In this document: positions 7,794 to 64,000 of the stretch, piece after piece | Numbering within the stretch: position 1 is the first letter of the stretch | Layout: each line of letters starts with the position of its first letter | Virus record (IMG/VR): IMGVR_UViG_3300028393_000039 | Span: 23,915 to 87,914 of that record | DNA: 64,000 nt | Source: a virus | Reading direction: 5' to 3' (one strand) | The notes under the pieces: model-generated | Told to the model about the DNA's origin: nothing | Seen by the model: only the letters and a program-made list of their open reading frames with translations | Database searches by the model: none | Position numbers and translations under genes: made by a program

Positions 7794-8297
7794 TTATGAG
7801 TTTGTTGTCGTATTTTTATTATATTCTAAACAAGTTGGTATTTTAGCAATTGTTTGGAATTTTTTTAATCGATTCCAAGTGTCATCCCAATTATACTTCA
7901 TCTCACCTTCCATCCATCGCCAAAGATTTTGATTATCATATTTAAATGTTTTCCAAATTGCTGATAATTCATTAACCGTTTTAATTTCATCTAATACTTT
8001 AATAAAATCTTCATTTGTTCCTCTCCCTTTCATAGACTTGTATAATCTGTCATTCCACGCCTTTATTTTAGTAGTATTTGAATCAGGTTGAATTTTACCG
8101 CAATAAGTAAGAAGTTGACTTAATTTATTTTTTGCAGGATTTTCTTTTTTACATCCTCCTTTCTCTATTCCTGGAGTAAAGATAACACCCGCTAAAGCTG
8201 GGTCTGAAGCAACATCAAAAAGACCAGGTTGTTCTTTTATTACTCTTTTAACAATTTTTACTAAATCATTTTCTGTTATTCTTATTATCCTTGCCAT
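7794..8297 (-). CDS. Leader-tagged protein (MARIIRITENDLVKIVKRVIKE)
   Basis: The first 22 residues form the ITE-type leader: I-x-E occurs at ITE (residue 9) and again at IKE (residue 22). The rest (about 145 residues) is an unrecognised domain with Trp-rich helices (AIWKTFKYDNQNLWRWMEG). By analogy with T4 internal proteins it is probably packaged in the head and cleaved by the prohead protease. A sense TATTTAT box lies in the upstream region. Confidence 0.75.
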   Translation of the reverse strand: MARIIRITENDLVKIVKRVIKEQPGLFDVASDPALAGVIFTPGIEKGGCKKENPAKNKLSQLLTYCGKIQPDSNTTKIKAWNDRLYKSMKGRGTNEDFIKVLDEIKTVNELSAIWKTFKYDNQNLWRWMEGEMKYNWDDTWNRLKKFQTIAKIPTCLEYNKNTTTNS

Positions 8298-8330
8298 AAC
8301 ATTTTTTATAATAAATACCCCATAAAATTA

Positions 8331-8353
8331 AAAACCCCCATTTAAGGGGGTTA
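8331..8353. terminator. Terminator after hsp20
   Basis: A CCCCCATTTAAGGGGG hairpin with flanking A and T runs lies just beyond the hsp20 stop codon. Confidence 0.75.
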
Positions 8354-8357
8354 ATGA

Positions 8358-8744
8358 TTACAACAAACTTATTCTTTTTTTCTTTTCCGTTTTCTTGTAG
8401 TTTGCAACAAATACGGTAAGTATACCATCTTCAATTGTTGCTTCGATGTTGTCGGGGTTATATTCTTGTCCGATTCTAAATTTTTGTGAAATAACTTTTT
8501 CTGTGTCTTCACCATTTAATTTATATGTTCTTTTACCATCAAGGTAAAGAACTCCCCCTTCCATTTCTACTTTTAAATTTGACTTATTAAAGCCAGGAAC
8601 ATCAAAGAATAAGTAAGCTCCGTCTTTGGTGTAGTTTACCTCATAAGGTTCTTTATCTGAATTTTTAACAACCATATTACTATAAGTAGGTTGTGCGAAA
8701 AACCCATCAAAAAATTTGTCGAAATGTGAATTCAAGTAAATCAT
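8358..8744 (-). CDS. hsp20: Hsp20 / alpha-crystallin small heat-shock protein
   Basis: The 128-residue protein has a complete alpha-crystallin domain: YLFFDVPGFNKSNLKVEME, VLYLDGKRTY, then ATIEDGILTVFVANYKK, ending in a basic tail with the I-x-L type motif RISLL. Small heat-shock proteins hold unfolding proteins in a refoldable state for AAA+ partners. The ClpC-like gene is divergent to it across 170 bases. A sigma54-like promoter lies in that gap. Phage hsp20 genes are known from cyanophages, where a role in virion maturation has been suggested. Confidence 0.92.
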   Translation of the reverse strand: MIYLNSHFDKFFDGFFAQPTYSNMVVKNSDKEPYEVNYTKDGAYLFFDVPGFNKSNLKVEMEGGVLYLDGKRTYKLNGEDTEKVISQKFRIGQEYNPDNIEATIEDGILTVFVANYKKTEKKKRISLL

Positions 8745-8791
8745 AATTTTTTTGTTTTGTTTTTTAAATTTATTTAATTATCTTTGATTAG

Positions 8792-8807
8792 TCAAGTTAT
8801 GTGCCAA
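8792..8807 (-). promoter_or_regulatory. Sigma54-like promoter for hsp20
   Basis: The sense strand reads TTGGCACATAACTTGA, which fits the -24/-12 consensus TTGGCAC-N5-TTGC with one mismatch at the last base. The hsp20 ATG is about 48 bases downstream. A TTG-N20-TAAATTTA sigmaA-type alternative overlaps the same region. Confidence 0.45.
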
Positions 8808-8819
8808 CAGAACATATTA

Positions 8820-8862
8820 TGACAAAATGACATACATAGAAAATTTTCAGGACAATTTGACA
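8820..8862. promoter_or_regulatory. Paired 13-bp operator or enhancer-like motifs
   Basis: TGACAAAATGACA (8820-8832) and GGACAATTTGACA (8850-8862) are two copies of a TGACA-type direct-repeat motif, spaced 30 bases apart in the divergent hsp20/clpC gap. Upstream placement relative to a sigma54-like promoter suggests activator sites. The same motif recurs near the putative origin. Confidence 0.45.
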
Positions 8863-8868
8863 AAAAGT

Positions 8869-13994: not shown

Positions 13995-15458
13995 ATGAAA
14001 TTTTCTGAATTTGTCCTATCTGAAGGTAGAAGAGAAACATTACTTAAAAAGTATATGGGTGAGTATGATATGCAAACCTTAGATGCGATTTTAAATGATG
14101 AATTTACAAAAGCAACAAATTACAAATATGTTGATTGGATTTTTAATCATTTAGATTTTGCTTCCACCACACACGCATTAGAAGTTTTACAATTAGTTAA
14201 AGACTTTGATAGGATAGGTAAGAATTTAGAAAAAAAAGACATCAATCAATATCCTGATGTTGCAGAACTAATGGGCGTTATACAATCTTATAGTTCAAAA
14301 TCTCAAGAAAAAAAGATTGACTCTGACGCAAAAAAAATATATGAGGATGGTAGAGTTCTTATTGTGAAACCTTTATCTCATAAAGCGTCTTGTAAATATG
14401 GTGCCGGAACCAAATGGTGCACAACAGAAACTTCACCAGGATATTACGACAAACATACATCAGGTAATCAGGGACTTTATTATATAATAATGAAAGAGTT
14501 TGATATTAGCAATAAGTTTTATAAAATCGCATTACATAGAGATAATAATCAAGATACTTGGTATGATGCAAAAGATACACCGATGCCTCCAAGAGAAGTT
14601 GATGTATTAAAAGTGGGATTAGGAAAAAAAGCAACAAAGGCAATTGATGATGATTTTAATGAGAACAAAAACAAAATAATTAAAGAACTTTTTAATCCAA
14701 AAAATCACGACCACGTAGTTGCCACCTATGACCTCTTTAATTCAAAAAAACCATTAACACTTGAATTTAAAAATCCTCAAATATCTAATGAAGGTGCAGG
14801 ATTTGCGGAAATGGATTTAATTGTTTATTTAGGTTGGGAAGATAATGAACAGATAATTGAACAGGGAACTTTAAAAATTTCTTATAATAAACTACCTGGA
14901 AATGATTCATATTCTTTTGATGTTGGTTATGAACCCGATGATAACTTTGAACCGCCTGCCGAACTTACTACTTTGTGGCATATGGATGCCAATTTTGGAT
15001 TAAACCTAACGCAAAGCACTATTCCCCCATTTAAACAAGTTTGTAATATATTGAATTCTCAAATTTGGAGAAGGCTTGAATATGATAAAAACTTACAAAA
15101 ATTTGTTTTAGGTGGTAAAAAAAGTTGGAGTCCAAATAGAAGTAGTTATGGATTTACCTTTGAAAGAAAGGGTGGTTTAATCAATAAATTAGTTGATTAT
15201 ATAGATAGTGGAAAAGAAGGAAATGCAATAGATTTCTTGGAAGACGCAAAAGTTGTTAGAATTTTAGTCAACCCTGACGGAACAAAAAAATATATTGGAA
15301 AAAGAGGTCATATACAACCAAAAGGATATTTTAGTGCGTTTTTCGCATCTGCAAGAAACGCCGGAATATTAAATTACGAAAGAAAAAATAAAAAAAATAT
15401 TTTAACAAAAGGCCCTAACTTTGATGATTTCAAAGAAGGTAATTTAGTCCCGCTTTAA
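13995..15458 (+). CDS. Leader-tagged protein with KYGAGTKWCT domain
   Basis: The 487-residue protein starts MKFSEFVLSE-GRRE, very like the T4 capsid-targeting peptide MKTYQEFIAE. At about residues 125-150 it has VLIVKPLSHKASCKYGAGTKWCTTE, a domain with an invariant-looking Lys-Trp-Cys. A second copy of this domain occurs at 31838-32926. The C-terminal 250 residues are beta-rich and unrecognised. The Cys-containing motif could be catalytic, but no fold is assigned. A TATTTAT box lies 4 bases before the ATG. Confidence 0.75.
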   Translation: MKFSEFVLSEGRRETLLKKYMGEYDMQTLDAILNDEFTKATNYKYVDWIFNHLDFASTTHALEVLQLVKDFDRIGKNLEKKDINQYPDVAELMGVIQSYSSKSQEKKIDSDAKKIYEDGRVLIVKPLSHKASCKYGAGTKWCTTETSPGYYDKHTSGNQGLYYIIMKEFDISNKFYKIALHRDNNQDTWYDAKDTPMPPREVDVLKVGLGKKATKAIDDDFNENKNKIIKELFNPKNHDHVVATYDLFNSKKPLTLEFKNPQISNEGAGFAEMDLIVYLGWEDNEQIIEQGTLKISYNKLPGNDSYSFDVGYEPDDNFEPPAELTTLWHMDANFGLNLTQSTIPPFKQVCNILNSQIWRRLEYDKNLQKFVLGGKKSWSPNRSSYGFTFERKGGLINKLVDYIDSGKEGNAIDFLEDAKVVRILVNPDGTKKYIGKRGHIQPKGYFSAFFASARNAGILNYERKNKKNILTKGPNFDDFKEGNLVPL

Positions 15459-16085: not shown

Positions 16086-16277
16086 ATGATAGATATTAAA
16101 AAAATTTTAGAAGAAGGAGGCCCGATGAAAAAGTATGATGGCATCGCCCCTGATGGATTTATATTGATTACTGAAGGCGCATTAGAAGAACTTAAAGTCT
16201 TTGATACTTGGAAAGAATGGAAAAATAACACATTATCAATTAAAGAACTTAACAACAGGAATTTTCCTGAAATTTAA
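16086..16277 (+). CDS. Small leader-tagged protein, 63 aa
   Basis: It starts MIDIKKILEEGG, an [I/L]-x-E leader (LEE) followed by glycines. The rest is ITEGALEELKVFDTWKEWKN, unrecognised. It is followed after 12 bases by the M15-type gene. Confidence 0.55.
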   Translation: MIDIKKILEEGGPMKKYDGIAPDGFILITEGALEELKVFDTWKEWKNNTLSIKELNNRNFPEI

Positions 16278-16289: not shown

Positions 16290-17519
16290 ATGAAAAAATT
16301 AAATGAAAATATTACTAGGTTAAAAACACTTATGAATATTTCAGAGGCGGATGATGTATACGCAAATGTTGATTTTAAAGATAGAGTCGTAGGTAGTAGT
16401 ACACCATCTAAAGATAATATTAATGTCGCACTTTTAAAGGATGTTCAAACTGCAGCTGAAAGAGCTAATGTAAAGGTTGATGTCACGACAGCAGTTTCAG
16501 GACACAAAACAGGTAAATCAAGACATACAACAGGTAATGCGGTTGATATTGCAATAATTAATGGTAAAGCAGTTAGTAACTCAAATAGAGGAGACGCCGA
16601 CAAACTTGTAGGTGAATTGATAAAAATGGGTTATACTAAAAATAGAGAATCTGGTAACCCTAAAGCAGTATTAACTTTTGGATTTCCCGGTCACGATAAT
16701 CACGTTCACGTTTCAAATACAACAGGTACCCCAACAGAAAAACAAGATACCCCAATTTCAGAACCTCTCTCACCTTCAAAAGACTTTGCAACATCACAAT
16801 CAGGAAGTACTCCTACAGATGATATAGAAAGAAATTTTATAAAATCTATAGGTGCTTCATTTGGTTTAAAAGAAGAAAAAATATATTCAGAATTCGGTAA
16901 AGATAAAGTTTTAAGTTCGGGCACAATTAAATTACCAAAAAATAGTAATTCACAAATTAAAAGTCCTGTCGATGGTATTGTAAATAATAAAAAAGATTCT
17001 AGTACGTCTTGTGTTAATAAAATTGTAATTCAACATCTTATTAAAGAGAAAAAATATTATTTAGAATTTTGCAATATAACCAAACCTTACGTTTCTGATG
17101 GTGAAAAAGTACGTAAAGGAAAAATAATAGGTGAAACAAATGATGATGTTATTATTTCACTTTACAACTCTACTTATGATAAGGTATCAATAACAAAATA
17201 TCTTAACGTAGATACAGACGATGATAAAGACAAAGATGACGATAAAGAAAAAGAATATAAAAAATCTAAAACATACAAAGACCCATTAATGGCTGCATTA
17301 ATACAAGCGCCTTTCAAGTTATTAAATCCATTTAAAGACAAATACGATAAAAAAACAGGTGAAAGGATTGAAAAAAGATGGGCAAGAGCAACTGACAAAG
17401 AACAACCAACACCTAATTGGTTAACAAAAATGAGTCCCACATATAAAGAAAAAGAGGTGGATAAAGAAGATGAAAAAATTAACGAGAATATAGAAAGAAT
17501 AAAAAAATTACTTAAATAA
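16290..17519 (+). CDS. M15-type peptidase fused to degenerate M23-like domain, leader-tagged
   Basis: The leader is MKKLNENITRLKTLMNISE (LNE, ISE). Residues about 70-155 match LAS/M15 peptidases: SGHKTGKSRHTTGNAVDIA (His and Asp zinc ligands) and HDNHVHVS (third His). Residues about 215-285 resemble an M23 fold (SPVDGIV, KKYYLEFCNI, VSDGEKVRKGKIIGET), but the HxH pair is replaced, so this part is probably a non-catalytic binding module. The C-terminus is charged and ends NENIERIKKLLK. It may be a virion-carried or lytic peptidoglycan peptidase. Confidence 0.8.
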   Translation: MKKLNENITRLKTLMNISEADDVYANVDFKDRVVGSSTPSKDNINVALLKDVQTAAERANVKVDVTTAVSGHKTGKSRHTTGNAVDIAIINGKAVSNSNRGDADKLVGELIKMGYTKNRESGNPKAVLTFGFPGHDNHVHVSNTTGTPTEKQDTPISEPLSPSKDFATSQSGSTPTDDIERNFIKSIGASFGLKEEKIYSEFGKDKVLSSGTIKLPKNSNSQIKSPVDGIVNNKKDSSTSCVNKIVIQHLIKEKKYYLEFCNITKPYVSDGEKVRKGKIIGETNDDVIISLYNSTYDKVSITKYLNVDTDDDKDKDDDKEKEYKKSKTYKDPLMAALIQAPFKLLNPFKDKYDKKTGERIEKRWARATDKEQPTPNWLTKMSPTYKEKEVDKEDEKINENIERIKKLLK

Positions 17520-18389: not shown

Positions 18390-18395
18390 AAATTG

Positions 18396-18467: not shown

Positions 18468-18473
18468 ATTCTG

Positions 18474-24041: not shown

Positions 24042-25181
24042 TTATGTTATTCTATATGGATTAGTTCTTTCAGGTGAAGTACCGATTGAATTATTTTCCC
24101 CTGAGAAGAAATCAATAATGTCGTCCATTTTTCTTGAACCACCCATAAGACCTAATTTCCAACTACCTTGACATTTTCCTTGAGTTTTTGAAATGTTTTT
24201 AGAACAGAATTTTCTCTTACAAGATTGAACGTCTTTTTTCATTTGAGTAAATGCGGTTGTTGTTGCGTCTACACCATTTTCATATGCTTCCATATAATTC
24301 TTTAAAAAGTCTTTACAGGTGTCATTATCAATTTTTCTATATCCTGATTCAGTACTAACAACATCTTTTGATGCTTGTCTAATTTTACTTAAACATTCAG
24401 GACTAACAAATATTTTTAACCCTTCTGTCACACCATATTCTGCACCTCCAACAACATTTTCTAAAGACCATTTCGGCTCACTCAAAGGCTCTTCTCCTTG
24501 GAATGCCCAACAAAAACCTTGTGATGGTTGTTTTAATTTTCTTTGGAATCTTGCTCCGTATCTATTGGTTAAAAAATCAATAACCTCAGTTTGTTCTTGT
24601 GAGCCAGCACCACCTACAGTAATTCCTTTCTTTTTGAAATATTGTACACCATTAATTGTCTTTTGCTCGTAGAATTTAGGGTCAGTAAGGTTTATACCCG
24701 CAGCTTTGGCCTCATCATACGTCATCCAACCACCTGCGTCAACTTCTTGTTTACCTGCAGTCGCACTAAAATCATCCGCCTGTGCAGTTAATCCCGCACA
24801 TTTCCACTTATATGTTCCTTTTTTAACCCAATTATTATTTGCTGCCTTTGTTCCATCATATACATCATAAGTCATATCACTTTTATATACAAGAACATCA
24901 CCTGTAACATATTTTGGTTTGTTGGTAACAGCACTTAACGGGCCGTCTTTGGCTGCGGTAATCTTAATTGCACGACTTCCACTTACTCTAACAAAAGCAC
25001 CATTTTTTAATGTGGGACAAACATTTTTGGCTTTTTTGATAAGGTCGTCACCTGTTGGTGCGGTTATCTGCTCGGATAAAACTAATTTATTTTTTAATCT
25101 ATTTTCTAAAATAGATTTAAAACTTTTATGTTTATCTAATATTTCTTTTTTTTCTGTTTCTGAAATTATAAATTTTTTCAT
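24042..25181 (-). CDS. Leader-tagged cysteine-containing virion-type protein, 379 aa
   Basis: The leader MKKFIISETEKKEILDKHKS has ISE at residue 8. LVLSEQ (L-S-E, about residue 37) is another possible cut site. The body holds about ten cysteines (VCPTLKNGAF, YKWKCAGLT, KSCKR-type clusters near the end) and two small beta-rich repeats (KGTYKWKCAG). Function unknown; grouped with its neighbours as a packaged or tail-tip protein. Confidence 0.65.
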   Translation of the reverse strand: MKKFIISETEKKEILDKHKSFKSILENRLKNKLVLSEQITAPTGDDLIKKAKNVCPTLKNGAFVRVSGSRAIKITAAKDGPLSAVTNKPKYVTGDVLVYKSDMTYDVYDGTKAANNNWVKKGTYKWKCAGLTAQADDFSATAGKQEVDAGGWMTYDEAKAAGINLTDPKFYEQKTINGVQYFKKKGITVGGAGSQEQTEVIDFLTNRYGARFQRKLKQPSQGFCWAFQGEEPLSEPKWSLENVVGGAEYGVTEGLKIFVSPECLSKIRQASKDVVSTESGYRKIDNDTCKDFLKNYMEAYENGVDATTTAFTQMKKDVQSCKRKFCSKNISKTQGKCQGSWKLGLMGGSRKMDDIIDFFSGENNSIGTSPERTNPYRIT

Positions 25182-29111: not shown

Positions 29112-29342
29112 ATGCAAACATTAGTATTTGACACAACATTAAAGACAGTTAAAGTCTATGAGACGGATACAGAATCAAAAATTCTTTATCAATTTGGTAA
29201 CATTCCAACAGTAAAAGTAAAAGAAGAAGGACAGTATTATGAAGTTATTCAAAAAGGTATTGATATGATGACTTCCGAAGAAAGAAGTCTTCCAATCGCA
29301 AGATTCCCTATCGCTAATACAAATATGCTTATTGAAAAATAA
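29112..29342 (+). CDS. Hypothetical protein, 76 aa
   Basis: The small beta-rich protein (MQTLVFDTTLKTVKVYETD) is the first gene behind the long structured leader, so it may be a regulated early gene. Its stop overlaps the next gene's ATG by one base. No family recognised. Confidence 0.65.
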   Translation: MQTLVFDTTLKTVKVYETDTESKILYQFGNIPTVKVKEEGQYYEVIQKGIDMMTSEERSLPIARFPIANTNMLIEK

Positions 29343-44944: not shown

Positions 44945-45439
44945 TTAATCTCCTTTAATAATTGATAAAGAATGTTTTAAAAATTCTTTTGCTCTTGGGT
45001 CGATATGATGAAAAGACATTATTTTTTCAATATCACTAACCAATTCTTCTCCGTGTTCATCTTCTTTATATAATTCAATTATTTTATCCATCGCTCTATT
45101 ACATTCTTTACTTTGTTCTTCAAAATAATTGTATGGTTTATAAGCCTTCAAAGTATTCATAACATTATTAGCCAAATGAACTCCACCATCATTAACTTTT
45201 TCTAAAGTATGGTATGACCTAAGAGTTTCTAACGCATCGGTTAAACCTCTAACACCATTTTTTCTTAATTTAATTCCATCAACATAGTCCTCATATTCAT
45301 CTTCCCCCATAACCTCATCTAATGACTTGGTGTTTCCTTTATGGCAAAACCTTCTTTCTTCGGAGGTTTTTTGTTCAAAGAAATAATTCTTTCTTATTTC
45401 TTTTCTTTCTTCTTCTGTGAGTGTAAATCTTTTATTCAT
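44945..45439 (-). CDS. Leader-tagged protein (MNKRFTLTEEERKEI), 164 aa
   Basis: The leader MNKRFTLTEEERKEIRKNYF has LTE at residue 9. It is helical and charged with no recognised motif; the Cys in RRFCHKGN and KECNRAM may bind metal. A TATTTAT box precedes it. Confidence 0.65.
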   Translation of the reverse strand: MNKRFTLTEEERKEIRKNYFFEQKTSEERRFCHKGNTKSLDEVMGEDEYEDYVDGIKLRKNGVRGLTDALETLRSYHTLEKVNDGGVHLANNVMNTLKAYKPYNYFEEQSKECNRAMDKIIELYKEDEHGEELVSDIEKIMSFHHIDPRAKEFLKHSLSIIKGD

Positions 45440-47128: not shown

Positions 47129-47401
47129 CTATGATTGGTATTTTATACTTGAGAAAGTTTTATTTAAATCATCTAAATTTCTATATATTCTACCTTTTAA
47201 TGTCGTATCAACTTCTTTACCTGATTGTAACATATTAAGTAGTTCTTTTAACTTGTCTATAATCTCTTCTACAGACTGTTCGGCGTCCTTATTTCCGTCG
47301 TTTGAAGAAAAGTTAGGTAATTGGGTGTATTTATCCAAATCCATCGCAGTTTCAATTAATTTGACTAATTCGGATTCTTTTATTAATATTGTTCGTGGCA
47401 T
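47129..47401 (-). CDS. Leader-tagged small protein (MPRTILIKESELVKLI), 90 aa
   Basis: The leader has IKE at residue 9, followed by 70 helical, acidic residues (SVEEIIDKLKELLNMLQSG). Probably packaged; no other function suggested. Confidence 0.6.
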   Translation of the reverse strand: MPRTILIKESELVKLIETAMDLDKYTQLPNFSSNDGNKDAEQSVEEIIDKLKELLNMLQSGKEVDTTLKGRIYRNLDDLNKTFSSIKYQS

Positions 47402-47521: not shown

Positions 47522-48313
47522 TTATTTTGAAGTTTTTATCTTAATTAATTCTGGGTTTTTAGTTGCAAAATATCTTTTCACTTCTTCGTGGTCAAGTATT
47601 TTTGTTTTTGGTGATAATCTTCTTGGTTTTTTATGAACATTATTAAATACTGCACCAACATAAACATAATTAGGTAATACATTAACCCAAATATTTAAAG
47701 ATTCAAGATATAAAAAATTATCAGAAAAAAGTACATCAACGTCATCTATTACCGCCAAATACATTTGTTTACCTAACCCAGTTCCTTTAGCCTCTTTATC
47801 TAATCCTGAAGTTGAAACTGCCCAAGAATTTTTAGGAAATTTAATATCACCAAAATATTCTGAAGTTTCTTTAACCGCAATTGAACCTATTGACTGTTCA
47901 AGTTCTGGGTCAAAAAAGAAGTATTGCTTGCCGCCCCATCTTGGTTGTTCAATAAAACAATCTAATCCCCTCAATCTTTTAATTCTCAAAAATTTCTTTG
48001 CAAGATAATACGCAAGATTTGATAAAACATCTTTTGTTTTTAATTCTGATGGGATATCATTATAATCACCTTCAATATTATCAGGAAATAGTTTGGTATA
48101 TTTTTTGGCGTCAGAACCCTTAAATTTAGTCAGACTATATCCAAGTTCATTTTTAATGTAATCTTTAACTGCATTTTTTATATTCTTTTCATTAACTCTT
48201 TCTTTAACAATATTAAAAATATCAACATAACTATCGGTAATATCCCAAGTTCCTTCTTGTACTCTAATTTCAGATATAAGTTTGTATTGTTCTTCTGTAA
48301 CAATATATTTCAT
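47522..48313 (-). CDS. Leader-tagged GNAT-like acetyltransferase
   Basis: The leader is MKYIVTEEQYKLISEIRVQE (VTE, ISE). A GNAT motif A, AKGTGLGKQMYLAVIDDVD, lies at about residues 180-198, followed by LYLESLNIWVN and YVYVGAVF. The N-terminal half (about 130 residues) has no known motif. It would acetylate a host target after injection; the target is unknown. Confidence 0.75.
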   Translation of the reverse strand: MKYIVTEEQYKLISEIRVQEGTWDITDSYVDIFNIVKERVNEKNIKNAVKDYIKNELGYSLTKFKGSDAKKYTKLFPDNIEGDYNDIPSELKTKDVLSNLAYYLAKKFLRIKRLRGLDCFIEQPRWGGKQYFFFDPELEQSIGSIAVKETSEYFGDIKFPKNSWAVSTSGLDKEAKGTGLGKQMYLAVIDDVDVLFSDNFLYLESLNIWVNVLPNYVYVGAVFNNVHKKPRRLSPKTKILDHEEVKRYFATKNPELIKIKTSK

Positions 48314-48353: not shown

Positions 48354-48728
48354 ATGAGTAAAATAGTAAGATTAACTGAATCTGAATTAGTTAGATTGGT
48401 TAAAAGAATGATTAAAGAAAGTGAAGAAGGTTTTGAAGTGATTGATGATGATTTTGAAGATATTCCTAATAAATCAACAGAATTCCCTGATAATGAGGAT
48501 GATGATATTGTAGATTATGGCTTTGATATTGAGGATAAATTTAGCGATGATGATGATTTTCAAAATAAAATGAAGTTTAAATCACATATGAGTAAACATA
48601 GGCCAAGTAGTATTGGAATTGGTGATAGTAAAAGATGGGATAAAGATAGTGAGAAAGAGTGGAGCCCCATCAAAGATGATGATTTACCATTAGATAAGTT
48701 TTTGAAATCAAAATATAATAAGAGATAA
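48354..48728 (+). CDS. Leader-tagged acidic protein, 124 aa
   Basis: The leader MSKIVRLTESELVRLVKRMIKE is followed by an acidic tail (EVIDDDFEDIPN; DNEDDDIVDYGFD) and a basic Ser/Lys end. LTE and IKE are both cleavable sites. An internal head or DNA-condensing function is possible. Confidence 0.65.
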   Translation: MSKIVRLTESELVRLVKRMIKESEEGFEVIDDDFEDIPNKSTEFPDNEDDDIVDYGFDIEDKFSDDDDFQNKMKFKSHMSKHRPSSIGIGDSKRWDKDSEKEWSPIKDDDLPLDKFLKSKYNKR

Positions 48729-48762: not shown

Positions 48763-49482
48763 TTAAACTAATGTATTTGTAATTCTTTCTATTTTTGAAG
48801 CTCCTTGTGAAACTAAACTATTTCCACTATTTTTTCTAATATCAATAGCAGCTTTTAATAATTCTTCAGGGTCTGTAACACCATATTCAACTTTTTTATT
48901 TATTTGTGATGCAAATTTCTTGAACCATCCTGGTCCATTCCAAGTAGCATAAATAAAATTAAATAATAATCCGGGATTACCATTAACAATTTCCCTTGAT
49001 TCGGGTGTTAAATATAAATTAGAATTTTTATCAAATTGTGGTTTAATTATTTGAGGGACAATATCCTTTAATTTTGATTCAAGTGGTCCTCCCATATAAT
49101 TCCATTTCCAAGTAGACCTAGCATTTGCATCATCTATTATTCCCCAAAACTTTTCACCAGCAGGAGTTGTATTTATATCTCCACCCGCCTTCCTATCAAT
49201 ACCAAACATAGTTTCACCTGAATTACCATATCTACTATCTTTAACTCTACCATCTTTTAACATATCAGGGTGGTAGTACCCTCCTTCAAGATTATCTATT
49301 ACTTTTTTAACCATTTCATCAAAATCTGAACTTACATTACTTGAACCTGATGATTTAGTAGAAATATTATTTTTTTTAGTTTTGTCGCTATCTACCATAG
49401 TTGGGTTAATCACACCACCTAATAAATCATTCATTAAATCAGCAAGTTGTTGTTCAGAAATTAATATGTTTTTCTTTCTCAT
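48763..49482 (-). CDS. Leader-tagged GH108-type muramidase
   Basis: Start at 49482 (MRKKNILISEQQLADLMNDL; ISE). A Ser/Gly linker leads to KKVIDNLEGGYYHPDMLKDG (probable catalytic Glu in EGGYY), GNSGETMFGIDRKAGGD and WKWNYMGGPL, then FIYATWNGPGWFKKFA. This is the pattern of GH108-like virion lysozymes, which cut the wall during entry. Linked to the adjacent tagged gene by 1 base. Confidence 0.78.
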   Translation of the reverse strand: MRKKNILISEQQLADLMNDLLGGVINPTMVDSDKTKKNNISTKSSGSSNVSSDFDEMVKKVIDNLEGGYYHPDMLKDGRVKDSRYGNSGETMFGIDRKAGGDINTTPAGEKFWGIIDDANARSTWKWNYMGGPLESKLKDIVPQIIKPQFDKNSNLYLTPESREIVNGNPGLLFNFIYATWNGPGWFKKFASQINKKVEYGVTDPEELLKAAIDIRKNSGNSLVSQGASKIERITNTLV

Positions 49483-50043: not shown

Positions 50044-50289
50044 TTAGTTTGAACCTGTACTACCTCTACCTACCTTACCTTCCATCTTCTCGTAGAATCC
50101 TTCTTTACTACCTCTCCAATCCCAAGGTAATCCGTGTTTGGCGTTGTATTCTATCTGTTCGTTAGATACACCTTTAAGTTTTTGCATTAGTTTTTTAACT
50201 AACGACATTTTTTCTTTTTCTTCCTCTTGAATAATTCTTTTTGTTATTCTCTCTAAATCAGATTCTGTAAGTTTTACTATTTTTTTCAT
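50044..50289 (-). CDS. Leader-tagged small protein, 81 aa
   Basis: The leader MKKIVKLTESDLERITKRIIQE (LTE, IQE) is followed by an amphipathic tail with HGLPWDWRGSKEGFYEKM. Probably packaged. No domain is recognised. Confidence 0.65.
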   Translation of the reverse strand: MKKIVKLTESDLERITKRIIQEEEKEKMSLVKKLMQKLKGVSNEQIEYNAKHGLPWDWRGSKEGFYEKMEGKVGRGSTGSN

Positions 50290-50300: not shown

Positions 50301-50825
50301 TTAAAAATCTATTCCTTCAACGTGAACAGGTAATCCAATATTTGGTTCCCAATTTTCTTTTATGTATTCCATAACTTTCATTAAAGAATCACCGGTGTTT
50401 CCTTCATTCATTCCTTCAACAAGTAATTCATCTTTTTCTTGTGATGTTGTTAATCTTAATTTATTTCCCGCATCAAAATATTCAAAACCATATCCATCTT
50501 CGTCAATTATATTACTTACTTGAAATATTTGAAATACGGTGTCTCCGTCTTTTTCATCTCCAAGTATCATAATGTCTTTATAATCAATAAATCCACTACT
50601 TATTAATCTGGACATCACCTCACTTGAAAAAATTATTTTTTCAGCATCATCAAGTTCTACTTCATCTTCTTCAGGTTCAATTTTCTCATCAGGATTTTGT
50701 AAAATATGTAATTCTTCGGGTGTTAATGAATCTTTACCCAACTCATTCATCTTATCAAGTATTCTATCAATCTCATCTTGATTAACTAATCTTCTATACT
50801 GCTCTTCCGTTATAATAATTTTCAT
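50301..50825 (-). CDS. Leader-tagged protein (MKIIITEEQYRRL), 174 aa
   Basis: The leader has ITE at residue 7. A helix LDKMNELGKDSLTPEELHIL, resembling a SHOCT-type helix, follows at about residues 20-45. The rest is acidic and soluble. Function unknown. Confidence 0.6.
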   Translation of the reverse strand: MKIIITEEQYRRLVNQDEIDRILDKMNELGKDSLTPEELHILQNPDEKIEPEEDEVELDDAEKIIFSSEVMSRLISSGFIDYKDIMILGDEKDGDTVFQIFQVSNIIDEDGYGFEYFDAGNKLRLTTSQEKDELLVEGMNEGNTGDSLMKVMEYIKENWEPNIGLPVHVEGIDF

Positions 50826-53247: not shown

Positions 53248-53823
53248 CTATTTTGACGATAACCTTTTTTCAATCCATTTAACAAACACATCAATAGGAA
53301 CCCTATGTCCCATATTAGGTTCAATATGTTTATCATAATTATTGTCCCCAACATTTGACTCAATCCAATCCATAGTTAACTGCGGAGGAAGAAGTTCATC
53401 AATCTCACCCATAACAATTTCAATATTAGGATTATACTTTCCACTTGTATCAAATGATATTCCAAATCTATCCATAGGTATATTTGGGTCCAATACAGGA
53501 TTAAATAACAATCCATCAATACCCAATTTCTTACATAAACAATATGCCAAAAACCCACCCATAGATGAACCAATAATTAACTTCACATTTCTTTTGGATA
53601 TCTCATCCACCATCCAATCAAATATTTCATTAGAATCCTCATTACGATAATTAAGATGGGGAGCAAATACATCATACCCAAGAGAATATAAGAAATTTAT
53701 TTTAACCCCAATAGGGACAGCATCCAATCCGTGCAAATATACAATAGTCTCATCCTGTGATTCCTTTATAACCCTCCTAACAATTTTACCCAAATCAGAT
53801 TCAGTTAATTTAATAATTTTCAT
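53248..53823 (-). CDS. Leader-tagged alpha/beta hydrolase, YqiA-like
   Basis: The leader MKIIKLTESDLGKIVRRVIKES (LTE, IKE). After it, ETIVYLHGLDAVPIG, then the nucleophile elbow IGSSMGGFLAY (G-x-S-x-G), an acid in GEIDELLPP, and a His in NMGHRVPIDVF. This order fits the UPF0227/YqiA esterase group. If packaged it would hydrolyse a host ester or thioester after entry. Substrate unknown. Confidence 0.82.
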   Translation of the reverse strand: MKIIKLTESDLGKIVRRVIKESQDETIVYLHGLDAVPIGVKINFLYSLGYDVFAPHLNYRNEDSNEIFDWMVDEISKRNVKLIIGSSMGGFLAYCLCKKLGIDGLLFNPVLDPNIPMDRFGISFDTSGKYNPNIEIVMGEIDELLPPQLTMDWIESNVGDNNYDKHIEPNMGHRVPIDVFVKWIEKRLSSK

Positions 53824-54211: not shown

Positions 54212-54520
54212 TTAGTCTTGCAAAAACATTCCATAAGGGTCATCAAGTGACGCTTCAATCGCGGATTCTATTTCATCTTTTTCTTCATCAGATAATGAAT
54301 CATTATCTGCAGCCTCCATTGAAATATTAATTAAATCATTATAAGTTTGTTTGAGGGTTTCCAAATGACGACCGAGTTCACTTCTATATTCATCAAAAGA
54401 TTTTTCTTTTTCAGGGCGGTTGGTTACATTCCATTTAGGTGAAAATTCCTCATCTTCCTTAATTACCTTTTTAACCAATCTATTTAAATCTGCTTCCGTT
54501 AATTTTGTTATTCTTGCCAT
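54212..54520 (-). CDS. Leader-tagged acidic protein, 102 aa
   Basis: Start at 54520: MARITKLTEADLNRLVKKVIKE (LTE, IKE), then an acidic helical body (SDEEKDEIESAIEASLDD). Packaged role inferred from the leader. Confidence 0.65.
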   Translation of the reverse strand: MARITKLTEADLNRLVKKVIKEDEEFSPKWNVTNRPEKEKSFDEYRSELGRHLETLKQTYNDLINISMEAADNDSLSDEEKDEIESAIEASLDDPYGMFLQD

Positions 54521-54562: not shown

Positions 54563-54907
54563 CTACGTTGAATAAGGGGGGAATTTTTTAATAAACTTAT
54601 CAATAAGAATATCTTTAATCTTATCCTCAAATTCACCTGGAGGTAATTTATCAAATCTTTTCTTTGGACCCAAATGAATACTAATCCAATTATTGTCGGG
54701 TCCTTTAACCTTTGCAATTATGTTCTCCCTTGAATCAACCGTATATGTATACTTTGGATTCTCAAGATAATTAATTTTATTTAACTTATCTTTTATTTCC
54801 TCATACCTATTAATTACAGATTCATTCTCACGTTTTAATTTATCCAACTCATTTTGAAGTTCTATTGTGATTTGAATAAATTGAGATTCCGTTATAATAA
54901 TTTTCAT
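54563..54907 (-). CDS. Leader-tagged protein (MKIIITESQFIQI), 114 aa
   Basis: ITE at residue 7, then a coiled coil (LQNELDKLKRENESVINRY) and a beta-rich end (ENIIAKVKGPDNNWISIHLG). Function unknown. Confidence 0.65.
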   Translation of the reverse strand: MKIIITESQFIQITIELQNELDKLKRENESVINRYEEIKDKLNKINYLENPKYTYTVDSRENIIAKVKGPDNNWISIHLGPKKRFDKLPPGEFEDKIKDILIDKFIKKFPPYST

Positions 54908-55418: not shown

Positions 55419-55772
55419 TCACTTACAATTATTATCGTAATATGATTCTATCTTTTTAGAATATAGTAAATCAAAAAATTTTTCGAATTTTTTAGTATCT
55501 TCACTAAACTCATCAACACCAAAATAAAAATGGATATTATCAAAATCATTTCTTTCAATTGATACCAATATAAAGTCCTTAACCCACTGAACATATTCCT
55601 TTTTTGTCCCTCCCTTACAATACGATTTTAAAGATTCTTTCATCTTATAATCAATTAAAGAATCATATTTTCTAAGTCTCCTTAAAAAAAATAATTTATT
55701 ATCGCTCTCATTTATAACTCTTTTAATAATCCTATTCAAATCAGATTCCGTTAATCTTATAATCTTTTTCAT
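55419..55772 (-). CDS. Leader-tagged protein, 117 aa
   Basis: Start at 55772: MKKIIRLTESDLNRIIKRVINES (LTE, INE). An upstream extension of the frame lacks a plausible start. The body (YDSLIDYKMKESLKSYCKG) is helical with no motif. Confidence 0.65.
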   Translation of the reverse strand: MKKIIRLTESDLNRIIKRVINESDNKLFFLRRLRKYDSLIDYKMKESLKSYCKGGTKKEYVQWVKDFILVSIERNDFDNIHFYFGVDEFSEDTKKFEKFFDLLYSKKIESYYDNNCK

Positions 55773-55995: not shown

Positions 55996-56319
55996 TTATT
56001 TCTTTGGACTTGTATCTTGAAGTTGTTCTAATGTTGGTAATGTAACACCCGTTATCTTTTGGGTCGCCAATTCATCCTGAACCAATTTAATTACTTGAGA
56101 ATATAATTGATTAACATCTTTTCCCTCAGCACCTTTACTTGTTATGATTTGACTTGTTTCTTTATTTATGACTTTTATATCCACCCTACAACTTCCAAAA
56201 AAACAAAACTTTGTTCCCGCAGCCATATATAATGAATTTGGTGTCGTACCCGTTGTTTGTTGTTCATATAAACTCTTTATATGTTTTTTTTCTTCTTCTG
56301 TAATTATAAATTTTCCCAT
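55996..56319 (-). CDS. Leader-tagged protein (MGKFIITEEEKKHI), 107 aa
   Basis: Start at 56319: MGKFIITEEEKKHIKSLYEQ (ITE at residue 8). A Cys pair in KFCFFGSCRVDIKV lies mid-protein. Its end is at the edge of the putative origin. Confidence 0.65.
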   Translation of the reverse strand: MGKFIITEEEKKHIKSLYEQQTTGTTPNSLYMAAGTKFCFFGSCRVDIKVINKETSQIITSKGAEGKDVNQLYSQVIKLVQDELATQKITGVTLPTLEQLQDTSPKK

Positions 56320-59645: not shown

Positions 59646-60485
59646 TTATTTCTTCTTCTTTACACAATTTGGATATCTCTTCCCAAACATAGTTTTCATT
59701 CCTTTTTGAGTATATCCCTTCCAACACTTTTCTGTTAGTTCCGCCTCTTTCATTTCTTCTTTATCTGAACCCAATTCTTTATACATAGTATGATTCATTT
59801 TATTTTTATTGTCCTTTTCACTTATAAATCCTAACGTTTTATAGAAATCTATCGCTCTATGATTATCATTCATTACTGATAATTTTATCAAATTCATATG
59901 TAATTTATTTTTAACATGATTAAAAATATTTTTCATTAAAATTTTACCATATCCCATTTTTAAAAACTTTTCGTAAGTAATCATACCATGTAAACCAACA
60001 TAATTATCTAATATAGTAAAATAACAAGAACTAACCAATTCGTTATCAACCAAAAGTTTAAATTGATTATCATCAATTATGAATTCTGTGTTAGATATGT
60101 TTTCATTCAAAAATTGTATCCAATTCTTTACTCTGTCTATTTGTTCTCTCATTTCTTCTTTATCGGATTTTAATTTTTCTATAATATAATCACTATAATA
60201 TTTCTTTAGATATATCTTCGCCAATTCATAATACTCTTCCCCACCCAAATCCAAATTATTTTCATTAAAAAATAATATAACCGCCGAATTACATATTGCA
60301 TCTATAACAAAATCCTTTGATTTATCAATACCATTTGCATTTACTGCCGCTAAAATTATCTTCATAGAACCTTTAATTGAATCCTTAATTTGGGAATCTC
60401 TTCTTCTCATAAACATATTAAACTTTCTATGCATATCTTCGTGCTCTTCTCTTAATACTTTTCTTATTGTTTCTTGTAAGTTCAT
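59646..60485 (-). CDS. Leader-tagged GNAT acetyltransferase, 279 aa
   Basis: The leader MNLQETIRKVLREE (LQE, LRE). The GNAT part is at about residues 125-240: VDNELVSSCYFTILDNYVGL, GYGKILMKNIFNHVKNKL and LSVMNDNHRAIDFYKTLGF. The C-terminus has CWKGYTQKGMKTMFGKRYPN, a motif I recall from T4-like phage head-region proteins. Likely packaged. Confidence 0.8.
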   Translation of the reverse strand: MNLQETIRKVLREEHEDMHRKFNMFMRRRDSQIKDSIKGSMKIILAAVNANGIDKSKDFVIDAICNSAVILFFNENNLDLGGEEYYELAKIYLKKYYSDYIIEKLKSDKEEMREQIDRVKNWIQFLNENISNTEFIIDDNQFKLLVDNELVSSCYFTILDNYVGLHGMITYEKFLKMGYGKILMKNIFNHVKNKLHMNLIKLSVMNDNHRAIDFYKTLGFISEKDNKNKMNHTMYKELGSDKEEMKEAELTEKCWKGYTQKGMKTMFGKRYPNCVKKKK

Positions 60486-60489: not shown

Positions 60490-60906
60490 TTATCTATTAT
60501 ATGGTCTAAATCTCATAGGATTAACGTTTATTGCTGTTTTGGAGAATCTTGTTCCAACTCCCTGTCTTCTTGCATTTTTCAAGGTTCTTGCATATTCATT
60601 TTGTTCTTCTTTGTGAGGGTTTTCTAATTCGTTAATAGATTTAACAAGTTTACGACATTTATCGGAGACTCCACCTTTTTCGTGGTCTGTTATTGATATT
60701 GTAACCTTATTATAATTTATTGTGATGTCGGGATGATGGTTTTGTTTTTCAGCTATCTTTGCAACCTTATTAACAAAATCAATTGAGTCATTAAAATCTT
60801 TGAATTTAAAAGTTCTTTCCAATTTTTCTTTGGAATCTCCCCAATCTTTGGATTTATTTACATCCATTTCAATTAATACTCTTCTTATTGTTTCTTGTAA
60901 GTTCAT
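60490..60906 (-). CDS. Leader-tagged pterin-4a-carbinolamine dehydratase-like protein
   Basis: The leader MNLQETIRRVLIEMD (LQE, LIE) precedes a PCD/DCoH-like domain: FKFKDFNDSIDFVNKVAKIA, EKQNHHPDITINYNKVTISI and TDHEKGGVSDKCRKLVKSI. The paired His in HHPD is the usual active-site motif. PCD recycles pterin cofactor. Why such an enzyme would be packaged is unclear. C-terminal about 45 residues are basic. Confidence 0.82.
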   Translation of the reverse strand: MNLQETIRRVLIEMDVNKSKDWGDSKEKLERTFKFKDFNDSIDFVNKVAKIAEKQNHHPDITINYNKVTISITDHEKGGVSDKCRKLVKSINELENPHKEEQNEYARTLKNARRQGVGTRFSKTAINVNPMRFRPYNR

Positions 60907-61433
60907 TATGCGGGTTTTATATTTTCAGGGTTAAATACAACATATTGTTTTGATGTTACGGCATATTCATCACCCGTATCATTCCAAGTATCTTCACCTA
61001 TTATTATTCCGTCGTGTCCATCTGCCGCCAACATATCCATAAGTTGTTCTCTTCCTTGACTAACCGCATCATCCAAATAACCACGCCAAAAATTATCATA
61101 ATACTTTGGGTTCTGTAAGTTAATATGATATGGTTTTCCTTCCCTCTTTTCATTTCTAACTGAATATGAGAAGTCCTCCACACCTTTTTTTGTTTCTGCA
61201 AACCATATTCCTCCACCTCTTGGGTCAAGTTTCATTTCTCCTGCTCTCCAGACAATTTCCTTAACTTTGCTATTGGAAAAATCACCCGTATTCTCGGGAT
61301 TATATTCTTTCCCCCTGTATGGATTTTGTTCTTTTCTTTTTTGGTCAGCCCTGTCCACTAAATTTTGGAGAAAGGACTGCTCATTTAGTCCCATCACCTC
61401 CTTAATTCTATTTATATTCTCTTGTAAGTTCAT
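60906..61433 (-). CDS. Leader-tagged ADP-ribosyltransferase-like protein
   Basis: Start at 61433: MNLQENINRIKEVMGLNE (LQE, LNE). The body matches ART-fold enzymes of the polyvalent type: IVWRAGEMKLDPRGGGIWFA, FSYSVRNEKREG, then DGHDGIIIGED and TSKQYVVFNPENIK. The Arg of WRAGE fits an ART first motif. The usual catalytic Glu is not obvious (Gln in KQYVVF). T4 Alt is a packaged ADP-ribosyltransferase, so this is the closest functional parallel in the set. Confidence 0.72.
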   Translation of the reverse strand: MNLQENINRIKEVMGLNEQSFLQNLVDRADQKRKEQNPYRGKEYNPENTGDFSNSKVKEIVWRAGEMKLDPRGGGIWFAETKKGVEDFSYSVRNEKREGKPYHINLQNPKYYDNFWRGYLDDAVSQGREQLMDMLAADGHDGIIIGEDTWNDTGDEYAVTSKQYVVFNPENIKPA

Positions 61434-61466: not shown

Positions 61467-61790
61467 ATGAAATACATTATAACGGAAACACAAGCAGAAA
61501 AAATTAAAATTCTTCGTAGGATTTATAGTGAGGATTGGAATTGGATAAGTCAAATAGTTGATGATTTGGTTAATATGTTTAACCCCTGCAATTATGAAAG
61601 CGAAGAAGATTATTTGGATTCAGTATCAAGAACTACTGCAAATACTTATCTAGTTAGCTATCTTGGTTCTGAGGAAGGTTCAGATACTTTTTTGAGTCTT
61701 TCTGATTATATTAAATTGTTAATTAAACAAAGAATGGGTGATGATATAATGGAGTATTATGGAGACTTAATAAACGATTGCGAAAATTAA
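61467..61790 (+). CDS. KYIITETQ-family paralogue 1, 107 aa
   Basis: The leader MKYIITETQAEKIKILRRI. The body (EDWNWISQIVDDLVNMFNPC, EDYLDSVSRTTANTYL, RMGDDIMEYYGDLINDCEN) is close to the next gene. It starts a run of six tandem genes. Function unknown. Confidence 0.75.
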   Translation: MKYIITETQAEKIKILRRIYSEDWNWISQIVDDLVNMFNPCNYESEEDYLDSVSRTTANTYLVSYLGSEEGSDTFLSLSDYIKLLIKQRMGDDIMEYYGDLINDCEN

Positions 61791-61791
61791 T

Positions 61792-62115
61792 ATGAAATAC
61801 ATTATAACGGAAACACAGGCTGAAAGGATTAAACTTCTTCGTAGGATTAATGGCGAGGATTGGGATTGGATAAGTGAAATAGTTGAGGAAGGAATTGATT
61901 TATATAACCCCTGCCATTATGAAAGCAAAGAAGATTATATGGATTCTGTTGCAAGAAGTTGTGCTAATGCTTATCTATTAAACTATTTTGATTTTGGGAA
62001 ACGTTCAGATACATTTTTCCAACTTTATAATTATATGATTGCATTAATTAAAAAAAGAATGGGTGATGATATAATTAACCATTATGAAGATTTAATAAAC
62101 GATTGCGAAGATTAA
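61792..62115 (+). CDS. KYIITETQ-family paralogue 2, 107 aa
   Basis: MKYIITETQAERIKLLRRIN, with EDWDWISEIVEEGIDLYNPC and RMGDDIINHYEDLINDCED. High identity to paralogue 1, so a recent tandem duplicate. Starts 1 base after its stop. Confidence 0.75.
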   Translation: MKYIITETQAERIKLLRRINGEDWDWISEIVEEGIDLYNPCHYESKEDYMDSVARSCANAYLLNYFDFGKRSDTFFQLYNYMIALIKKRMGDDIINHYEDLINDCED

Positions 62116-62116
62116 T

Positions 62117-62392
62117 ATGAAATACATTATAACGGAAACACAAGCAGAAAGATTGCAAGTTATGAGAAGAATAAAAGAATTAAGGGAGTATATCAAATCT
62201 TCGGATGCTTATAACTATATTTGTGATTATAGCTCATTTGATGATTTCTTATATGACGGATTATATTTGGGTATGCAGGAGGATGGAGAACTTGATTGGG
62301 TAACATCAAATAATATTGATTATGTGTTTGATGTTATTAACACGATGTTCTATAAGGAATTAAAAAATTTTTATAAAAATAGATGCGATTAA
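62117..62392 (+). CDS. KYIITETQ-family paralogue 3, 91 aa
   Basis: MKYIITETQAERLQVMRRIK; the body has diverged from copies 1 and 2 (FDDFLYDGLYLGMQEDGELD). The start follows the previous stop by 1 base. Confidence 0.72.
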   Translation: MKYIITETQAERLQVMRRIKELREYIKSSDAYNYICDYSSFDDFLYDGLYLGMQEDGELDWVTSNNIDYVFDVINTMFYKELKNFYKNRCD

Positions 62393-62393
62393 T

Positions 62394-63089
62394 ATGAAAT
62401 ACGTTGTAGACAATTTTAGTGATGATGAATTAATGAGAATTATTCGTAAATTTATCATCCATATATACGGGAAACAATTAACTATGAAAGAAAATAGTAG
62501 TGGGTATATTAATTTCTATTCTTCGGGACCCGTGCCACCATATCACAGAAACTGGTCAGGTAGATTGTGGATTGATGATGATAGATTATATAATATAATA
62601 GAAACTTTCTTTTCAATAAGTGGACATCAGGCACTTGCCTTAATTGGTTTTTATTTCTCAAATTTTTATGGTATTAAAGTAACGGACGCAAGAATTCAAT
62701 CTCACATATTTTTTGATACACGAATTGATTATTCACAATTTGATGATGAGAACTATCAAGTTGAAGATGATGATGATGATGATGAGGATATTATAACTGA
62801 ATCGCAGTTTGATAGATATAAGAAATTAGTTAGAAAATATGTTATATCTATGAAATATCCTGGTGTTTGTAAGATTGAGGTGATGGATGATGAAGATGAA
62901 GATAAGATGTATGTTCACGTTTTCTTTTCCGCCGAGTGGTATGCAGAAACCGCTAATACTGGAGGTGAGATGAGTATTGTAAAAAAAGTTGTGGGAACAA
63001 TTGTGGAAATAAAACAAGAATTGGAAGAAATGTTTTCCCCTATGAAATTTTATGTGGGACATAGCATTAGAGCAAATAAAAATTGTTAA
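62394..63089 (+). CDS. Two-part member of the array, 231 aa
   Basis: The start MKYVVDNFSDDELMRIIRKF differs from the others. Residues about 1-115 resemble a separate small fold (WSGRLWIDDDRLYNIIETFF). An acidic stretch and DIITESQFDRYKKLV lead to the PGVCKIEVMDDE fold at the C-terminus. It looks like a fusion of two small domains. Confidence 0.7.
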   Translation: MKYVVDNFSDDELMRIIRKFIIHIYGKQLTMKENSSGYINFYSSGPVPPYHRNWSGRLWIDDDRLYNIIETFFSISGHQALALIGFYFSNFYGIKVTDARIQSHIFFDTRIDYSQFDDENYQVEDDDDDDEDIITESQFDRYKKLVRKYVISMKYPGVCKIEVMDDEDEDKMYVHVFFSAEWYAETANTGGEMSIVKKVVGTIVEIKQELEEMFSPMKFYVGHSIRANKNC

Positions 63090-63090
63090 T

Positions 63091-63375
63091 ATGAAATACA
63101 TTATAACTGAAACACAAAGAGATAGATTAATGGTAAGAAGAAGATTACCTGAACTTAAAGATTTGATTAAAAACTTATTCCCTTTTTATTATCCTTGCGA
63201 TTATGATTCTTTATCAGAATATATGATGGCAATGAAAGTTGAAATGTTTGAAACACTAACCCTTGATTGGTTTGAAGGTGTTGATGAAGATGTAATTTGG
63301 GATATGGTTACAGATATATATAGTGATTATATGGCCGATAACTATATCTCCAATTGTGGAGAAAACCAAAAATAA
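63091..63375 (+). CDS. KYIITETQ-family paralogue 4, 94 aa
   Basis: Start at 63091: MKYIITETQRDRLMVRRRLP. The body shares the FYYPCDYDSLSEYMMAMKVE pattern with copies 1 and 2. Confidence 0.72.
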   Translation: MKYIITETQRDRLMVRRRLPELKDLIKNLFPFYYPCDYDSLSEYMMAMKVEMFETLTLDWFEGVDEDVIWDMVTDIYSDYMADNYISNCGENQK

Positions 63376-63380
63376 TAACT

Positions 63381-63680
63381 ATGAAATACATCATAACTGA
63401 AACGCAACTACATTATTTAAGAAGATTATCTATTATTGATAAGTTAATTAAAAGTTCTCTTGAGATGTTTGATAGATGGCACTTTTCTAATATTGATGTT
63501 GATTATATGATTAAATATCTTGTACCAGATGTTGCCGAATTATATTTTTTTAGATTTGCCGACGACATTTATATTGATGGTGAGGATTATGGTAAATTAA
63601 CAGATTTTCTTGAAGTATATTTGGAAAAAAATTGGAGGGATAAACTTGAGAGCATAATAAAAAGTCATAAAGGAAAATGA
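63381..63680 (+). CDS. KYIITETQ-family paralogue 5, 99 aa
   Basis: Start at 63381: MKYIITETQLHYLRRLSIID. The stop TGA overlaps the next ATG (ATGA). Confidence 0.72.
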   Translation: MKYIITETQLHYLRRLSIIDKLIKSSLEMFDRWHFSNIDVDYMIKYLVPDVAELYFFRFADDIYIDGEDYGKLTDFLEVYLEKNWRDKLESIIKSHKGK

Positions 63681-64000
63681 AATACATTATAACAGAAGAA
63701 CAACATTTAAGATTATATAAAATAATGAAAAATCTTATGCTTGAAAGGCTTCCCCAACTTGAATTTCCTCTTGAAAAAAGTATGATTCAAATTCACAAAA
63801 AAACAACATCATATAAAGATGCTGATGGTGAGCCTTGGTTTAAAGAATTTGATGATAGAGATAGATTTGAAGATTCCAAATGGGAAGTTAATCAAGGATT
63901 AGAATTTCTTTTTGATGTATTTGGTGAAGATTTATTTATGGATTTTGTTAAACATTATTTTAACATAAACATTAGAGAGAAAGGTAATAAAAAATGGGAT
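63677..64000 (+). CDS. KYIITEEQ-family paralogue 6, cut by window end
   Basis: MKYIITEEQHLRLYKIMKNL, then about 88 further residues to the window edge without a stop (ends INIREKGNKKWD). Probably a longer member of the family. Confidence 0.7.
   Translation, partial: MKYIITEEQHLRLYKIMKNLMLERLPQLEFPLEKSMIQIHKKTTSYKDADGEPWFKEFDDRDRFEDSKWEVNQGLEFLFDVFGEDLFMDFVKHYFNINIREKGNKKWD

Follow-up and report, generated by a model that had tools for sequence, protein, structure and literature searches.

The window analysed in this study, a 64-kb stretch of DNA corresponding to bases 23915–87914 of the 87,914-base IMG/VR virus record IMGVR_UViG_3300028393_000039 of a T4-related environmental phage, encodes about thirty proteins that start with short N-terminal leaders carrying [I/L]xE motifs. 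The leaders were grouped into class A (for example MKKIIRLTE), class B (MKYIITExQ), class C (for example MGKFIITE) and class D (MNLQE), and there is a high likelihood that they are capsid-targeting propeptides of the T4 type. Considered by class, this identity is very likely for classes A and C, and it probably extends, via leader swaps, to classes B and D. The sequence suggests that the phage packs the tagged proteins in its head and delivers them into the host by injection.

Phage T4 has a capsid-targeting sequence (CTS) with cleavage after [L/I]-X-E (PMC9026906). The T4 protein Alt starts with MELITE/LF, and IPII and IPIII start with MKTYQEFIAE/ (throughout the text, a slash marks a possible cleavage position). 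In the CTS of IPIII, residues 4 and 7 matter for targeting, while residues 8 and 10 matter for processing (PMC9026906). In the mechanism proposed for the present phage, the leader would bring each protein, once synthesised, to the prohead scaffold and dock it there. During head maturation, an S77 protease would cleave after the last [I/L]xE, and perhaps also after the inner one, leaving the body free inside the head. The freed body would then be ejected along with the DNA, and the leaders of classes B and D would be functionally equivalent to those of classes A and C.

Leader counts and leader ends

An earlier note on this DNA had described leader types at a series of gene starts, and each of these starts was found to carry the leader as described. 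Strict leader patterns matched 26 of the 141 genes of the record (nine class A, 11 class B, four class C, and two class D), compared with approximately 0.1 matches per genome after shuffling. The window holds 24 of the matches, and two more leader-bearing genes lie to its left (window coordinates −10676 and −10062). When looser variants were included, the count rose to about 30. The starts at 54520, 55772, 56319, 61433, and 63091 sit within longer open reading frames (ORFs) and require an internal ATG. The note had also described the bodies as unrelated to one another, which holds for most of them; an exception is the pair of paralogous class B genes at 61467 and 61792.

An [IL]xE motif ending at residues 3–13 was observed in 48 of 138 record genes, as against 18.3 predicted from the body rates and 21.9 ± 4.1 (maximum 38 in 2000 shuffles) after residues 2–40 were shuffled. 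The class A, B, and C patterns were absent from 1,361 ORFs of arbitrarily chosen viral contigs, from the 70 T4 ORFs examined, and from 221 ORFs of the Flavobacterium phage immuto. The same strict patterns gave 25, 28, and 15 matches in relatives of 322, 294, and 98 kb, respectively, and zero to three in four possibly partial relatives; the number of leaders therefore varies widely between relatives.

In the general layout, a leader has [I/L][T/S]E or a similar motif close to its start, and in most cases a short helix and another [I/L]xE come after it. A 24-residue class A leader had no tblastn match in isolate phages, and after this outcome the leaders were scanned as degenerate DNA patterns. 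The class A pattern used against IMG/VR covered residues 7–17 only and left residue 22 unspecified. It returned 90 matches, 82 of which start 4–8 residues past an ATG. In the resulting profile of 78 distinct proteins, E22 was present in 75 and [ILV]xE in 74; position 20 was occupied by I, L, or V in nearly all of them, position 21 was variable, and the information was near background from residue 24. The second [I/L]xE that the note had placed at about residue 22 is thus where the class A leader ends. The early motif within about 10 residues is also real, and in most leaders it is a later [I/L]xE that forms the end; for class A, the first motif (residues 7–9) was rejected as the leader end. 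In class C, a second [ILVM]xE was found at residues 16–32 in 58 of 60 proteins, compared with 6–10 of 60 in control windows. The corresponding site of class B, at residues 11–17, was present in 34 of 101 proteins, compared with 10–11 in control windows.

Head genes, leader swaps and internal-site avoidance

A T4-type head module was identified on the minus strand; most of it lies beyond the left edge of the window, and one gene reaches into the window:

1..840, minus strand: part of a gp20-type portal gene that crosses the left edge of the window (PF07230, E = 7.4e-77)

The record left of the window contains a prohead protease that belongs to S77, the gp21 family (PF03420, E = 1.7e-22), a gp22-like acidic scaffold protein, and a gp23-type capsid protein. 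By the latter, the isolates Flavobacterium phage immuto, Microcystis phage Mel-JY01, and Rhodothermus phage RM378 come closest, and none of them reaches 60% identity. The N-terminus of the capsid protein includes ...ASFLINE/ASS, in which the maturation site LINE/A was invariant across 30 distinct relatives and occupies the position of the T4 gp23 site, SFLTE/A.

The protease was also associated with the leaders in other phages. S77 was detected in 19 of 40 leader-bearing contigs (36–326 kb) and in one of 22 arbitrary contigs (Fisher p = 3.3e-4); each of the eight leader-bearing contigs of 280 kb or more had it. Among size-matched contigs of 35–100 kb, it was present in six of 21 leader-bearing contigs and in none of 19 others (p = 0.014). 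The six leader-bearing contigs above 100 kb that lacked S77 also lacked gp23 and are probably fragments. The S77 association alone was rejected as proof of function, given that a lineage effect is possible.

The leader forms a module that can be separated from the body, and for this reason it has been acquired by unrelated proteins, and homologues have exchanged leader types. Clustering by body sequence gave 349 clusters with class A, B, or C leaders in IMG/VR, and 15 clusters of fewer than 60 members contained mixed leader classes. Homologous bodies with different leaders included L127 (class A) and L483 (class C), peptidoglycan-binding proteins with class A or class C, and relatives of the EGGY-domain protein at 48763–49482, with leaders of class B, class C, and other types. 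The pterin dehydratase has a class D leader in the window (60490) and a class B leader in the homologues L380 and L469, while M23 peptidase homologues carry several different leaders or none. The junction coincides between leader types, as seen for VINE/QMYHREHIY (class A) and YNLNE/QDQAAIETKY (class C), and for ILSE/QPDEKMP (class A) and ILLE/QPDSKMP (class B). Nine sequences of a DHH phosphoesterase family, with leaders of 7, 8, 11, 21, and 22 residues, all have Glu at the junction. Two of these DHH homologues, from uncultured phages of 635–642 kb, carry KYxQFINE/, in which Y, F, I, and E are spaced as in the T4 CTS.

The two 635–642-kb phages (L655, L656, and L658) have other recurrent leaders, namely MKYLKxFE/ or MKxxxSYKIFE/ and Mxx(K/N)xxxFI(N/K/R)E/, the last of which is close to the T4 MKTYQEFIAE/. 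Their S77 matches were weak and below the cut-off.

In the AlphaFold2 model of the EGGY protein, residues 1–48 had a predicted local distance difference test (pLDDT) score below 50, and most of residues 52–239 was folded with confidence, which places the leader outside the confident fold. A fold search of this model against the PDB gave no significant match (best E = 1.5), with GH24 muramidase and MltC at low probability only, and no function was assigned from it. In a conserved class A family encoded near gp23, both leader Glu residues and the Glu of a third motif, [MIV]xE/G[RK]KK, were invariant, and the preceding residue varied each time. The AlphaFold2 model of this protein was of moderate confidence (predicted template modelling score 0.42) and showed the leader as a separate helix; it was not used as proof. 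Synonymous codon differences among the leaders point to conservation at the protein level. In one member of the family (L003:1853-2317), the invariant [MIV]xE is followed by a C-terminal basic domain, GTKLCARGKAAAKSKFKVYPSAYANGYAVQVCKG, which recurs in pelagiphages and between the scaffold and capsid genes of Prochlorococcus phage P-SCSP2.

If the bodies are packaged, they would meet the [I/L]xE protease in the prohead and should therefore avoid its motif. The avoidance was measured on bodies from residue 41 onwards, with one body per cluster, relative to untagged proteins. The observed-to-expected ratio of [IL]xE was 0.84 in class A and C bodies, as against 1.12 for untagged proteins, which gives a ratio of 0.76 (z = −5.1). 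This avoidance ratio was not reached in any of 20,000 permutations (p ≤ 5e-5), and the direction was the same in three length classes. The avoidance was specific, in that no significant depletion was seen for any of 13 other residues tested at that position in these bodies, nor for VxE, MxE, FxE, or the mirror motif Ex[IL]. Relative to control motifs, [IL]xE stood at 0.73 in class A, 0.67 in class C, and 0.57 in C-like variants. In T4, the mature regions of IPI–III contain no [IL]xE site against 2.8 expected; Alt, which is packaged and processed, and gp24 showed no avoidance.

The earlier proposal of T4-like capsid targeting thus draws support from the S77 and head genes, the gp23 site, the stop of class A at [I/L]xE, the swaps at the junction, and the motif avoidance of classes A and C. 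The figure of about thirty is firm for the leaders and less firm for packaging, as the avoidance is clear in classes A and C and not in B and D.

Weighing the alternatives

Several observations weigh against capsid targeting. The leaders of the window are not alignable with the T4 CTS sequence, and the co-occurrence with S77 may reflect a shared lineage only. A GTDB scan with the class A pattern returned mostly chance matches, except for three Prevotella/Segatella genomes (L635, L639, and L645), each with a single class A-like leader (MNKKLIRLTESDLHRIVKESVNR...). In L635, this leader is on an 87-residue ORF amid host-like genes, perhaps a phage remnant. The class A motif was also found at the C-terminus of two proteins (in the set L140, L181, and L163), and a third ORF of this set has it mid-ORF, where two tagged units look fused. 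T4 Alt is processed at the C-terminus as well (PMC9026906), which may bear on the C-terminal motifs. Two thirds of the class B leaders had no second site. Relative to control motifs, the bodies of class B (0.90–0.93) and class D (0.88) showed no significant [IL]xE avoidance, with intervals that include 1; the case for these two classes therefore rests on the leader swaps and on the likeness of MKYIITE/ to MELITE/ of Alt.

The alternative that survives best takes up these last two points. Only the leaders of classes A and C would be head-targeting propeptides, while those of classes B and D would be another N-terminal element, such as a peptide through which small cytosolic proteins are regulated or oligomerise. 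The restriction of clear avoidance to class A, class C, and the C-like variants fits this explanation, as do the class B leaders with a single site. It is opposed by the A–B, B–C, and B–D swaps on homologous bodies, in which the second site is sometimes aligned, and by Alt, which has a closely similar N-terminus and likewise lacks motif avoidance. We consider this alternative unlikely.

It is considerably less probable that the leaders address a destination other than the head, such as the membrane, a replication compartment, or the tail, with the link to S77 being a coincidence of lineage. The basic, helix-forming segment of the class A leader would suit such a role, the S77 association taken alone is explicable by shared descent, and packaging is a prediction from the sequence. 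However, a different destination leaves unexplained the end of conservation at [I/L]xE, the variability of the residue that precedes the Glu, and the junction shared by homologues. It also does not explain why [IL]xE is the very motif avoided in the bodies of classes A and C, when Ex[IL], [IL]xD, and VxE are not.

The pattern [TS]xx[EDQ] is a common helix N-cap. We regard as highly improbable the explanation that the leaders are ordinary strand-plus-helix starts with [TS]-E helix caps, spread by duplication and recombination without a targeting role: paralogues do occur among the class B genes at 61467–64000 and many tagged genes lie in adjacent accessory blocks, but the leaders precede hundreds of different body clusters and had no match in the arbitrary viral ORFs, known domains (M23, pterin dehydratase, DHH) carry differing leaders or none, the first 48 residues of the EGGY model are of low confidence, and the codon differences indicate conservation of the peptide itself.

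Known systems, cargo and tagged genes

The capsid-targeting system proposed here resembles that of T4 in having a short N-terminal peptide that ends in [L/I]xE before unrelated bodies, and in combining an S77 protease with a gp20/gp22/gp23 head module in one phage, with gp23 matured at the same type of site. In contrast to T4, which has about four tagged genes, about 24–30 were found here, with at least four leader families, mostly of 15–30 residues with two sites. The class A–D leaders share only the final [I/L]xE with MKTYQEFIAE and were found almost only in uncultured phages. In phiKZ and SPN3US, a protease related to gp21 trims many head proteins behind a short xE motif, and ejection proteins enter the host (PMC10052503, PMC9026906). 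Unlike in this record, the cleavage motif of phiKZ is S/A-x-E, and its propeptides are mostly long, with no common swappable leader and few short-leader substrates. The N-terminal 30 residues of P1 DarB direct a reporter into the head (PMC9024508); P1 differs from this record in that there is no consensus among the Dar proteins and a separate scaffold is apparently absent.

Phage immuto (NC_055915), the closest isolate by the major capsid protein, has gp23 and S77. Leader-like families of its own occur on various ORFs (MENFDLKKFLVENKLTxNSKLLKE, MKKQILSEQFxRMQxLAGIITE, and MKKSQLRxIIKE), several of them near head genes; these differ in sequence from the leaders of this record, and none belongs to classes A–C. 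No earlier description of the present leader families was found in the literature searched, which left out most subscription journals. To our knowledge, capsid targeting is known experimentally only for a handful of T4 proteins and P1 DarB.

If capsid targeting is correct, the leader sequence alone would flag injected proteins in many uncultured phages, and hundreds of candidates for early effectors and anti-defence proteins could be catalogued in this way. Capsid targeting would also predict the exact neo-N-termini of the tagged proteins, and it would supply a set of leaders with which the loading of phage heads could be tried.

A known family was absent for most of the tagged bodies. The families recognised in the window are given with their E-values in the list below. 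The cargo of relatives included PG_binding_1, M23, phage lysozyme, SLT, LysM, Tae4, TseH-like, and GNAT domains, as well as an ECF-type sigma factor (L465:3698-4258; Sigma70_r2 3.6e-7, Sigma70_r4_2 2.8e-11) whose class B leader, MKYIITEQQYKLITE/, includes a second site and which is a possible injected sigma factor. These activities would fit proteins that enter the host early. As a tentative extension, a widespread group of uncultured T4-related and jumbo phages might use the head as a general protein-delivery device, in which exchangeable leader-family tags would let each phage carry tens of effectors. Among these would be cell-wall enzymes, acetyl- and ADP-ribosyltransferases, and, for some of the phages, a sigma factor acting on host transcription at injection. 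The tags may mark core positions or release times.

The tagged genes of the window are as follows, with protein lengths in residues:

7794..8297, minus: class A leader MARIIRITE/NDLVKIVKRVIKE/Q, 167-residue protein
13995..15458, plus: leader MKFSEFVLSE/GRR (like T4 EFIAE), 487-residue protein; homologues retain E/GR after other leaders (MKFMGILLRE/GRK and MDFLKLIQE/GRV)
16086..16277, plus: ILEE-type leader MIDIKKILE/E, 63-residue ORF, a weak case
16290..17519, plus: leader MKKLNE/NITRLKTLMNISE/A, M23 peptidase (6.2e-7)
24042..25181, minus: class C leader MKKFIISE/TEKKEILDKHKSFK..., 379-residue protein
25196..26161, minus: leader-like MKQTLKE/QLERYLTLSSYNTKLTLSE/, 321-residue protein
26185..27468, minus: class C leader MGKFFITE/GEKRNIQQMY, 427-residue protein
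29342..29524, plus: LNE-type leader MPNFEKILNE/N, 60-residue ORF, a weak case
30142..30762, plus: class B leader MNFLITE/TQLKFLVE/G, 206-residue protein; homologues have variant leaders
34240..34632, minus: leader-like MENLKFIIRE/ALNNIIKE/, 130-residue protein
42426..43364, minus: class A leader MKKIIRLSE/SELVSLVKRTIME/D, 312-residue protein
43846..44136, minus: class C variant MFISE/EEKKQILSKY, 96-residue protein; one homologue (L367) has a class B leader
44945..45439, minus: class C leader MNKRFTLTE/EERKEIRKNYFFE, 164-residue protein
47129..47401, minus: class A variant MPRTILIKE/SELVKLIE/TAMD, 90-residue protein
47522..48313, minus: class B leader MKYIVTEEQYKLISE/I, 263-residue protein
48354..48728, plus: class A leader MSKIVRLTE/SELVRLVKRMIKE/S, 124-residue acidic protein
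48763..49482, minus: leader MRKKNILISE/QQ..., EGGY-domain protein
50044..50289, minus: class A leader MKKIVKLTE/SDLERITKRIIQE/E, 81-residue protein
50301..50825, minus: class B leader MKIIITE/EQ, 174-residue protein
53248..53823, minus: class A leader MKIIKLTE/SDLGKIVRRVIKE/S, UPF0227 (4.1e-8) or alpha-beta hydrolase-like protein
54212..54520, minus: class A leader MARITKLTE/ADLNRLVKKVIKE/D, 102-residue protein
54563..54907, minus: class B leader MKIIITE/SQ, 114-residue protein
55419..55772, minus: class A leader MKKIIRLTE/SDLNRIIKRVINE/S, 117-residue protein, internal ATG of a longer ORF
55996..56319, minus: class C leader MGKFIITE/EEKKHIKSLYE, 107-residue protein, internal ATG
59646..60485, minus: class D leader MNLQE/TIRKVLRE/, GNAT acetyltransferase (4e-11)
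60490..60906, minus: class D leader MNLQE/TIRRVLIE/M, pterin-4a-carbinolamine dehydratase (4.7e-24)
60906..61433, minus: class D leader MNLQE/NINRIKEVMGLNE/Q, ART-PolyVal-like protein (3.3e-5 in Pfam, weak and below the cut-off)
61467..64000, plus: seven-gene run in which six genes have the class B leader MKYIITE/[TE]Q (61467, 61792, 62117, 63091, 63381, and 63677)

Within the last run, the gene at 62394 is without a full class B leader. Its class B genes are short and consecutive, some are clearly paralogous, and the run reaches the end of the record. Elsewhere in the window, tRNA-Glu and tRNA-Trp genes adjoin each other at 18395–18546 on the minus strand.

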